Shown: piece after piece, positions 4,761-6,993 of the stretch
Numbering within the stretch: the stretch's first letter is position 1
Layout: the number at the start of each line of letters is the position of its first letter
DNA from: Acidimicrobiales bacterium
Lineage (GTDB): Bacteria; Actinomycetota; Acidimicrobiia; Acidimicrobiales; UBA8190
Direction of reading: 5' to 3'
Assembly: GCA_030040015.1 (NCBI GenBank)
Contig: JASHUM010000090.1
Location: forward strand, 1 to 35,818
Length of the DNA: 35,818 nucleotides
The notes under the pieces: generated by a model
What the model saw: the letters and a program-made list of their open reading frames with translations, nothing else
Database searches by the model: none
What the model was told of the DNA's origin: nothing
Position numbers and translations under genes: made by a program

Positions 4761-5504
4761 CTACGGACACGCTGGCTCGGAACCGGCCGGTCCGGGGCCG
4801 CCACGGCGTGGGTCGGAGGCCAGCGAGCCGGGCAGGTGCACTTGCCGTGCCCAGGTCACCGCCTCGTTGGTCAGGGACGGGTGGACTCCCCAGCGCAGGA
4901 GCTGGGTCTCGGCCCCGTCGAACGTCTCTCCGAGGGCGACCAACCCGAGAGCCAGTCGTCGCGCTCGGTCCCGGTGCTGCTCGAAGGACGGTGAGGAGAC
5001 TCGGTGGCGGGCAGTCGCCGTCCAGCGAAGGTGGTCCTCCTGCAGGGGCAGGGGAAGGCGCAGGACGTGACGCCTGGCCAGAGGTGGCAGCGTACGTCGC
5101 ACCGCCAACGTCCCCGGGCCCTGCCACCGAGCGAGCTCGAAGGTGATGCATCGGCTGAGCGCTCGGGCGAAGGGGGAGTGCCGGCCCTGCCGTCCGCCCA
5201 GGCCCAGGGCCCGAGCAGTCTCGTCGAGGTCGAGGACGAAGCCGGGCTCACTGCGCTCGAAGCGGGTCGCGGCACGCCGGAGGAACCACGTGCAGGTGGG
5301 CCCGACGATCGGCAGCCAAAACTGCTCGACGTACCACGAGCGTGGGTCGAGGCCGAGCGAGTCCACCAATGGGTCGCGCCAGGGGATCACCCGCAGGGTG
5401 GACCTCGAGAGCTGGTTGGGCGCCCCGGGCTCGCCAGCCGGGTTGGAGTGGTCCTCGGGTTCCTCGGGTTGGATCGGGTCCTGGTGGGCGTCGATGAGGG
5501 CCAT
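4761..5504 (-). CDS. Conserved actinobacterial protein of unknown function
   Basis: This is a 247-residue soluble protein that I cannot assign to a functional family. The first 35 residues are acidic and probably disordered. A conserved-looking core follows: DPRSWYVEQFWLPIVGPT (residues 53-70), then FVLDLDETARALGLG (89-103), SPFARALSRCITFELAR (110-126), then LAVRRTLPPLARRHVLRLP (133-151). The middle part resembles a helical, possibly winged-helix unit. From memory, similar proteins of similar length occur in many actinobacteria without a known role; that recollection is not a search result. The start at ATG 5504 has a perfect AAGGAGG (5514-5508) 3 nt upstream. It is divergent from the GGDEF gene. 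Confidence 0.82.
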   Translation of the reverse strand: MALIDAHQDPIQPEEPEDHSNPAGEPGAPNQLSRSTLRVIPWRDPLVDSLGLDPRSWYVEQFWLPIVGPTCTWFLRRAATRFERSEPGFVLDLDETARALGLGGRQGRHSPFARALSRCITFELARWQGPGTLAVRRTLPPLARRHVLRLPLPLQEDHLRWTATARHRVSSPSFEQHRDRARRLALGLVALGETFDGAETQLLRWGVHPSLTNEAVTWARQVHLPGSLASDPRRGGPGPAGSEPACP

Positions 5505-5647
5505 CTGCCTCCTTCTGGCGAGGAGCGCAGTTTCGAGAACCCTTCTTGCCGGTCACCTGGCCGAGCACCTCACCGGTGTGGGATCCTCGAAGGCCCCCGA
5601 CCGAGTTCACTGGGCAGGACCAGGTCGGGCAGACGACTGGAGTGCTG

Positions 5648-6499
5648 GTGGGAGCGCAGGTGGGAGCAGGGTCGGGACCCGAGCCGGCCGATGCCGTCAA
5701 CGGGCCAGAAGCGGCAACGCCCCGGCGCCGCGGCCTCGGGCGAGGGCTCGGCGCCATCCTCCCGGCTCGGACCCCGGCGCCGGTGCGGTTTCTGGACACC
5801 GACGGGAGTCACGTCGACTCGGACTGGCTCCCGGGGGACAAAGGCGAGCCGGCGTGGGCGGGCACCTCCGCTCACGGCCCCGGTGAGCTCCTCGCCCAGC
5901 TCGACCGGGCGCTCGAGGGGGCCAGCGCGACCCGATCGACGCTCGCCGTGGTCGTCCTGGGCGTGGACGGATTCCGTCACGTCAACACCGCCTTCGGCCG
6001 GCGGGTGGGTGACGCCTTTCTCGAGGGGATCGAGGATCGCCTCGTGCGCTCCCACGGGCGCCGTGGTGACGTCGTGGGCAGGATCCGAGGTGACCAGTTC
6101 GTCGTGGCGTGCCCTCACCTCGACGGTCCCTTGGGCGCTCGGCGGTTCCTCGAGCGCGTCGCCGCTGACTTCGAGACTCCCATCTCCGCTGCGGGGGTGG
6201 AGCACAGTCTGCGGGCGACGCTCGGGTTGGTTCTCCTCGCCCCCGACCGCCCCGACGATGCCGACGTGACAGACAGCGACGATGCCGGCATGTCGGCCGA
6301 GGTCCTCCTCGGGTGCGCCGAGATGGCGAGATGGCGCGCTAAGGATGCCGGCCTGCGCCTGGCGGTGTTCACTCCCGAGCGCGATGTTCACCAGCCGCCG
6401 CGATGGAAGACCTCACTGAGCTCCCGGCGCGACCGGGTAGCCGATGCCGACGGGCGGTCGTCGTCCCCCGGCTCACCGAGAAGCACCGCTCCGAGGTAG
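5648..6499 (+). CDS. Degenerate GGDEF protein with ParB-like N-terminal motif
   Basis: About 283 residues if translation starts at GTG 5648 (GGAG at 5639-5642, 5 nt upstream); GTG 5642, GTG 5660 or TTG 5546 are alternatives. Residues 26-39 read RRRGLGRGLGAILP, very like the basic GLGRGL motif at the N-terminus of chromosome-partitioning ParB proteins. The second half is a GGDEF fold: LGVDGFRHVNTAFG matches the first metal-binding segment, but the signature is RGDQF (147-151) instead of GGDEF. The fourth-position Glu needed for diguanylate cyclase activity is thus Gln. It is therefore more likely a c-di-GMP or nucleotide sensor or a structural partner than an active cyclase. No membrane segment or EAL domain is seen. 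Its last 112 nt overlap the end of the opposing nitroreductase gene. Confidence 0.8.
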   Translation: MGAQVGAGSGPEPADAVNGPEAATPRRRGLGRGLGAILPARTPAPVRFLDTDGSHVDSDWLPGDKGEPAWAGTSAHGPGELLAQLDRALEGASATRSTLAVVVLGVDGFRHVNTAFGRRVGDAFLEGIEDRLVRSHGRRGDVVGRIRGDQFVVACPHLDGPLGARRFLERVAADFETPISAAGVEHSLRATLGLVLLAPDRPDDADVTDSDDAGMSAEVLLGCAEMARWRAKDAGLRLAVFTPERDVHQPPRWKTSLSSRRDRVADADGRSSSPGSPRSTAPR

Positions 6500-6993
6500 C
6501 GCCGGTCGTCCGGGACACCGAGGAGCTCCCGAAGCTCGCCCTCCCCCCGGAAGTTGCCCAGGAAGCAGGCCCCGAGCCCGAGGTCGACGGCACCGAGGAG
6601 GAGGAGCATCACTCCCATGGCCGCGTCGACGTCCCAGTAGCCCACCGGCCATTGCTCGATCCCCTGCCCAAGGCCCGACTCCGACTTGTCCTCCTCGAGG
6701 TACCGGGCCAGATATGCCCCGGGATTCGAGAAGACGGCGACCACGACGGGCGCTCGGCTGAGCCGTGGCCAGCGCGGCGATCGCCGGCGCCAATCCTCGG
6801 TGGTGGTGGCATCCCAGAAGCGGGCGGTCTCTCCGGCGCCCTCGAGGACGACGGCGTCCCAGCCCTGGGCGTTGCCTGCGCTCGGCGCCCGGCGAGCCAA
6901 GTCGAGCAGTCGCTCCAGCACGCCATGTTCGGGAGCAACGCCGGAGAAGCTCCGGACCATGCGCCGCCGGCGAACTGCCTCGGCGAGCTCCAT
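6388..6993 (-). CDS. Nitroreductase family flavoprotein
   Basis: This 201-residue protein should bind FMN and reduce a nitro, quinone or similar substrate using NAD(P)H or reduced F420. Typical family features are the N-terminal RRRRMVRSFSG, which contacts the flavin phosphate, ARRAPSAGNAQGWDAVVL (residues 33-50), the central helix DVDAAMGVMLLLLGAVDLGLGACFLGNF, and the closing HRGGW. The length is normal. The substrate cannot be read from the sequence; cofD and cofE in the same window make F420 a possible electron donor, which is inference. The start at ATG 6993 has a TAGCGT box 7 nt upstream. Its C-terminal coding region overlaps the GGDEF gene tail-to-tail. Confidence 0.9.
   Translation of the reverse strand: MELAEAVRRRRMVRSFSGVAPEHGVLERLLDLARRAPSAGNAQGWDAVVLEGAGETARFWDATTTEDWRRRSPRWPRLSRAPVVVAVFSNPGAYLARYLEEDKSESGLGQGIEQWPVGYWDVDAAMGVMLLLLGAVDLGLGACFLGNFRGEGELRELLGVPDDRRYLGAVLLGEPGDDDRPSASATRSRRELSEVFHRGGW

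Follow-up and report, generated by a model that had tools for sequence, protein, structure and literature searches.

A ParB-type N-terminal motif on GGDEF proteins of Acidimicrobiia suggests a link between c-di-GMP and ParA

The motif-GGDEF gene and its locus

The window, a stretch of 35,818 nucleotides from an Acidimicrobiales bacterium, carries a gene hereafter named MGG (motif-GGDEF gene), located between a divergent gene and a convergent nitroreductase gene. The features of the locus are listed below, with their basis in brackets.

4761 to 5504, minus strand: divergent neighbour gene (WYVEQFWLPIVGP...), conserved, no Pfam or NCBIfam match
5660 to 6499, plus strand: MGG, 279 amino acids from the GTG at 5660; alternative GTG starts at 5648 and 5642
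5723 to 5764, plus strand: RRRGLGRGLGAILP, by sequence a ParA-binding motif of the ParB type, in a disordered tail (pattern, codon comparison, model)
5765 to 5878, plus strand: linker between motif and GGDEF domain, unconserved and predicted disordered (codon comparison, model)
5879 to 6370, plus strand: GGDEF-fold domain (Pfam PF00990, AlphaFold2 model, PDB fold matches)
5960 to 5974, plus strand: GVDGF, in place of the D-x-D-x-F of active cyclases (alignment)
6059 to 6070, plus strand: RRGD, an inhibitory (I) site of the RxxD type, spaced as usual from the signature that follows it (alignment)
6086 to 6100, plus strand: RGDQF, degenerate GGDEF signature (reading, alignment)
6391 to 6499, plus strand: C-terminal tail of MGG, antisense to the end of the nitroreductase gene (ORF map, locus comparison)
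6388 to 6993, minus strand: nitroreductase gene, convergent to MGG (ORF map, locus comparison)

MGG belongs to a plus-strand frame that is open from a TTG at 5546 to 6499. Its start is most likely the GTG at 5660, which has GGGAG five bases 5' of it. A preliminary description, made from the DNA letters, had proposed that a motif nearly identical to that of ParB precedes a GGDEF domain with RGDQF at its signature and no ParB domain, and this layout is confirmed here. The motif is inside the translated region: PRRRGLGRGLGAILPAR (5720–5770) reads uninterrupted into the GGDEF domain, and in the G001 orthologue an ATG stands immediately 5' of the motif, giving MGRRGLGRGL. The domain is recognized by Pfam PF00990 with E=5.4e-17, and NCBIfam returns generic GGDEF matches only. 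A ParB/Srx nuclease-like CTPase domain (GERRxR) and a helix-turn-helix are absent from MGG, for which Pfam and the fold search give GGDEF only. In the AlphaFold2 model, calculated with six orthologues, residues ~71–240 form a GGDEF fold, with blocks mostly at pLDDT 76–90, and residues 1–70 form a disordered tail that contains the motif, with a short helical turn near it. The nearest PDB structures are GGDEF domains, for example those of PA0575, YfiN and PleD.

MGG and the nitroreductase gene overlap tail to tail over ~110 bases (6388–6499), which correspond to the last ~36 codons of MGG. Because of this antisense overlap, conservation of the MGG C-terminus does not count as independent evidence.

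Six MGG orthologues were identified in three genera: G000, G001 and G002 (genus g1), G008 and G014 (g6) and G010 (g8). Neighbours common to their loci are genes for a leucyl aminopeptidase, an ACT-domain protein, the divergent gene, the nitroreductase, MoeB and methylmalonyl-CoA mutase. Whether or not MGG is present, most genomes of the family keep the divergent gene at this position. In G004, G009, G013, G015, G016 and the g1 genome G003, at most ~550 bases separate the divergent gene from the nitroreductase gene, and no copy of MGG was found between them. Most genera of the family, in a genome set with many fragmented and incomplete members, yielded no MGG, and the gene is not close to parAB. 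Given this patchy distribution, the distance from parAB and the lack of a copy at the G003 locus, MGG is not essential to segregation, which counts against the docking role proposed below. So does the fast evolution of the g1 proteins, which have 41–49% identity within the genus as against 87–89% for the neighbouring MoeB.

In g6 and g8 only, an extra gene of ~350 codons separates the divergent gene from the MGG orthologue (L056:3610-4677, minus strand; L057:9003-10073, minus strand; L055:9194-10219, plus strand). These are also the genera whose orthologues keep an EAL domain. The extra gene is a possible functional partner.

Specificity and conservation of the motif

In the window's family, the ParB motif follows the pattern RRxGLG[KR]GL[GSA]A[IL][IL]P, and the MGG motif fits it. 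In the AlphaFold2 model, its position in a disordered tail is like that of the ParB tag. Hence the likeness to ParB claimed in the preliminary description extends from sequence to position and disorder.

At the family level, we searched with a degenerate DNA pattern encoding [RS]GLG[RK]GLxA followed by two hydrophobic residues, the reversed pattern serving as control. This gave 17 matches in 13 of the 17 genomes of the family and none for the control. Eight of them were read on the plus strand of their loci, four being ParB and four MGG or its orthologues; matches in G002:C134 and G010:C45 are likewise MGG orthologues. The remaining seven lie ~230–260 bases from a strong ParA match, the placement expected of parB. 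A stricter pattern was applied to 296 genomes of the phylum and yielded at most one match per genome, again with no control match. From several hundred pattern matches, we read 60 from the phylum search individually, together with a selection from the class survey. The 60 comprise 58 ParB proteins (57 assigned by script, L165 through its AGERRFRA), a different GGDEF protein (L125/L175) and a DUF4388 protein (L169/L176). With 58 of the 60 phylum matches read being ParB, a protein with the motif is, as judged from these patterns, almost always a ParB, which makes the GGDEF proteins real exceptions.

A chance match can be ruled out as the source of the motif, as the controls gave no match in family or phylum. 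A common low-complexity linker is also ruled out, the full motif occurring once in the genome bin of the window. A looser pattern added one match in this bin, GFGRGLDEVV in a CoA-transferase-like protein. The contigs of the genome, searched for MGG orthologues, gave no useful one and one remote GGDEF. Elsewhere, four loose-pattern matches were rejected as false: an FtsK-like protein (L189), an acyl-CoA dehydrogenase-like protein (L191), L184 and L190.

Two further occurrences were recorded. The DUF4388 protein (L176:1-1569, minus strand, G669) carries RRKSGLGRGLAAIIPPS in its C-terminal low-complexity part, and no second motif-bearing case was found in 35 genomes of its family. In G702, a 329-codon open frame (L188:2811-3797, plus strand) has ARRTGLGRGLQALLP at its N-terminus; it gave no convincing Pfam or NCBIfam match and no GGDEF. 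A GLGRGL tail by itself is insufficient to identify a ParB.

The preliminary description had also made conservation among orthologues a point to be checked, and the motif is retained in all three genera. Over the 11 codons of the motif core, 72 synonymous codon differences stand against 27 non-synonymous ones in the 15 sequence pairs of the six orthologues; the non-synonymous ones are mostly K/R or I/L exchanges or changes at the free x position. In the flanking linker, taken as 11 codons on each side, the ratio is 7 synonymous to 132 non-synonymous upstream and 8 to 144 downstream. From these core and flank counts, a short peptide is under purifying selection within a freely changing linker, with no selection visible on the flanks.

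A class-wide search for motif carriers ahead of GGDEF domains was also called for in the preliminary description. Our survey of the class, with selected second matches read, gave a second family, made of xR[RQ][SG]GLGRGLAALLP, a ~110-residue α/β domain and a canonical GGDEF domain (members L175-L187 and L195-L211, for example L179:5154-6026, minus strand). D-x-D, an RxGD-type I-site and IGGDEF are all present, which by sequence makes it an intact diguanylate cyclase. The middle domain has no family match, is GAF-like by secondary structure only, and the fold search matched the GGDEF part only. AlphaFold2 predicts a disordered tail over residues 1–35, with a short helix where the motif lies, and a GGDEF domain with pLDDT mostly >92. 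Of the 119 genomes of the class, 22 have one copy each of the second family. Among 197 genomes sampled from the phylum it was matched in two only, both members of the class. In several genomes the gene is divergent from an argS-like gene and near lysA- and hom-like genes, names that were given by inspection. In the GGDEF tree, the second family and MGG form separate clades, each with 100/100 support, so that the tag is found on two unrelated GGDEF proteins.

The second family carries the tag in orders sister to that of the window. Among its 22 orthologues, the motif is intact in 13 of 18 core members and decayed in five (e.g. QQSSIARGLGALFP, ERRGLSALIP); four distant orthologues, from the window's own order, have no motif. 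Where it decays, it does so by steps. This decay or absence implies that the putative interaction would be dispensable there. Codon differences nevertheless follow the same trend as in MGG, with a synonymous to non-synonymous ratio of 530:128 in the core and of 64:358 and 58:751 in the flanks.

A degenerate cyclase with a conserved I-site

The first metal-binding aspartate of D-x-D is a glycine in MGG and an alanine or glycine across all six orthologues. The signature is badly degraded in two of them (RGDQF in MGG, DGDVF). A GG[DE]EF signature and the full pair of metal-ligand acids are absent from MGG in the alignment. The cyclase is therefore very likely dead, in agreement with the inactivity suspected in the preliminary description.

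The closest relatives of the six MGG proteins in the GGDEF tree are the REC-GGDEF-EAL proteins of the family (e.g. G000:C21, a 724-codon open frame), with which they are grouped at a fork of 99/93, a support that concerns the whole fork and not the order inside it. In these relatives the N-terminal domain is of the receiver type (VLVVDDD...), and D-x-D, GGDEF and EALxRW are all intact. Their GGDEF-EAL order recurs in the g6 and g8 orthologues, where the EAL domain is still recognized (Pfam E=5e-36 and 9e-39). However, this domain is degenerate: its signature reads SARLGW, SALLGW or SAILVW, VAEG has become VAQG and the EAL glutamate is gone. In the g1 orthologues, the EAL domain is deleted. No REC domain appears in the Pfam results for the window protein or the long g6 and g8 forms. 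Thus, unlike its relatives, the MGG group has a motif tail instead of REC and has lost the metal aspartate and the EAL glutamate. As read from the tree and the alignments, MGG descends from an active REC-GGDEF-EAL protein, with the docking tail in place of REC.

The fate of the I-site is different. R134 and D137 of RxxD, five residues before the signature in MGG, are invariant in the six orthologues, at 33–49% identity to the window protein. RxxD is established as a c-di-GMP-binding site in PleD and in proteins of the PopA type, which are GGDEF effectors without catalytic activity whose I-site binds c-di-GMP. MGG, characterized here from its sequence, resembles the PopA type by its degenerate active site and kept RxxD. 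We know of no PopA-type member with a ParA-binding peptide. Since the I-site is invariant, the GGDEF domain of MGG is more likely to receive c-di-GMP, without making it, than to be a relic. RxxD may on the other hand persist without c-di-GMP binding. The most serious competing explanation keeps the docking on ParA and takes the GGDEF domain, without ligand, as a dead-enzyme scaffold or cargo adaptor that acts through dimers or protein contacts. Dead GGDEF domains are known as protein-protein modules, and both the two badly degraded signatures and the loss of EAL from the g1 copies would suit such a role. It does not explain why R134 and D137 stayed invariant over the six sequences when the signature did not, and we consider it unlikely.

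ParA as candidate partner and proposed working

The PF13614 ATPases of the family include two strong kinds: a chromosomal ParA beside parB (14 genomes), and an orphan ParA (ParA2). In Myxococcus ParA, Y81, E82, D110 and E117 receive the central arginine of the ParB motif (PMC12462528). We located these positions by counting from the asparagine of motif 2 (N64). They are Tyr, Asp, Asp and Glu in chromosomal ParA, without exception in the 14 family genomes where it was found, and His, Asp, Asp and His in 12 of 12 orphan ParA2 proteins. Because the receiving residues are kept in the former and half lost in the latter, chromosomal ParA is the predicted partner of the MGG tag. The window's own bin, which is 77% complete, yielded neither chromosomal ParA nor ParB, and the partner is thus deduced from relatives.

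ParA2 (G000:C20:7754-8281; homologues L079-L091) has ~260 amino acids and is similar to PDB 5IF9/4PFS. Its histidines in place of Tyr and Glu may distinguish ParA-like ATPases that work without the ParB tag. ParA2 is an example of another ATPase of the ParA/MinD group that might read the MGG tag. In favour of this, most genomes of the family carry it, no parB was seen next to it in eight loci that were read, and in several genomes a GGDEF-EAL gene lies a few kb away. That genomic link was rejected, as this GGDEF gene lacks the motif and the two genes are not adjacent. Moreover, ParA2 occurs also where MGG is absent, and it has His at two key positions that are invariantly Tyr and Glu in the motif-binding ParA. 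ParA2 is thus disfavoured as main partner, and a reader other than chromosomal ParA seems improbable.

The peptide is short and rich in Arg and Leu/Ile, so it could also be an amphipathic helix that binds membrane or nucleic acid, its likeness to ParB being convergent. This we judge equally improbable, as GLG[RK]GLxA[IL][IL] is matched in detail in two GGDEF families, including the K/R alternation of ParB, and the other pattern matches are almost all ParB. Least probable is that the window copy is a decaying, functionless relic of a g6/g8-type protein, as its missing EAL part, RGDQF signature and long branch and the G003 locus without a copy might suggest, since the frame is open in three g1 species and motif and RxxD are exact despite turnover at third codon positions.

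The best explanation is then that MGG is a dead GGDEF protein that would dock on chromosomal ParA through its ParB-type N-terminal peptide and read c-di-GMP through its I-site, a reading to which we give about an even chance. GGDEF proteins are known to form pairs, either by c-di-GMP bound at the I-site or as catalytic dimers. In ParB, where the ParA-binding motif sits in the N-terminal tail, the peptide alone suffices for ParA binding and, with DNA, for ParA stimulation; two paired peptides are needed for strong or productive action, and pairing is done by CTP-driven closure (PMC12462528). Since paired ParB peptides act on ParA and GGDEF proteins pair through c-di-GMP, we propose that c-di-GMP at RxxD could join two MGG GGDEF domains and place two N-terminal peptides side by side. 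The paired peptides would be the requirement for firm binding to the nucleoid-bound ParA-ATP dimer and for stimulation of its ATPase. Through MGG, the c-di-GMP level would compete with ParB or add to it in the control of ParA. In the second family, the tails would put a cyclase dimer on ParA, and c-di-GMP might be made there. We infer ParA binding, c-di-GMP binding, the pairing mechanism and the biological role of MGG from its sequence features.

By the features tested, MGG is neither a ParB nor an active cyclase, and in its working it would resemble a ParB tail, with a GGDEF dimer as the driving part. With chromosomal ParB of ParABS systems it shares a disordered N-terminal tail with RRxGLG[KR]GLxA[IL][IL]P (PMC12462528), but it has a GGDEF fold, and no ParB/Srx CTPase domain or helix-turn-helix was found. 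As proposed, it also resembles partners that bind or stimulate a positioning ATPase. PomX and MinE are such adaptors of ParA/MinD-type positioning ATPases. McdB is a further one (PMC12204374). However, each of the three serves its own dedicated ATPase with other sequences, whereas MGG would reuse the ParB peptide. In Myxococcus, CdbA, a c-di-GMP-dependent nucleoid protein, and CdbS tie c-di-GMP to chromosome organisation (PMC10313047); the link is made there by a DNA-binding protein and PilZ proteins, and here by a putative ParA-docking peptide. No description of a ParA-docking cyclase or GGDEF protein was found in the open-licence literature.

The prevailing view is that ParA serves ParB. The ParB-type grip on two unrelated c-di-GMP families suggests that a second messenger and segregation are connected in an undescribed way. 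The broader idea, with chances for and against that we see as balanced, is that the ParB tag can move between proteins as a ParA-docking module, with ParA a second-messenger hub beyond ParB. At least two c-di-GMP proteins would have acquired the tag, one a dead receptor and the other an intact cyclase, as perhaps did the DUF4388 protein and one further unassigned protein. If so, a second messenger could read or steer the segregation ATPase, or be made at a site defined by ParA, and c-di-GMP would be connected directly, at the molecular level, with chromosome segregation or cell polarity in this lineage.
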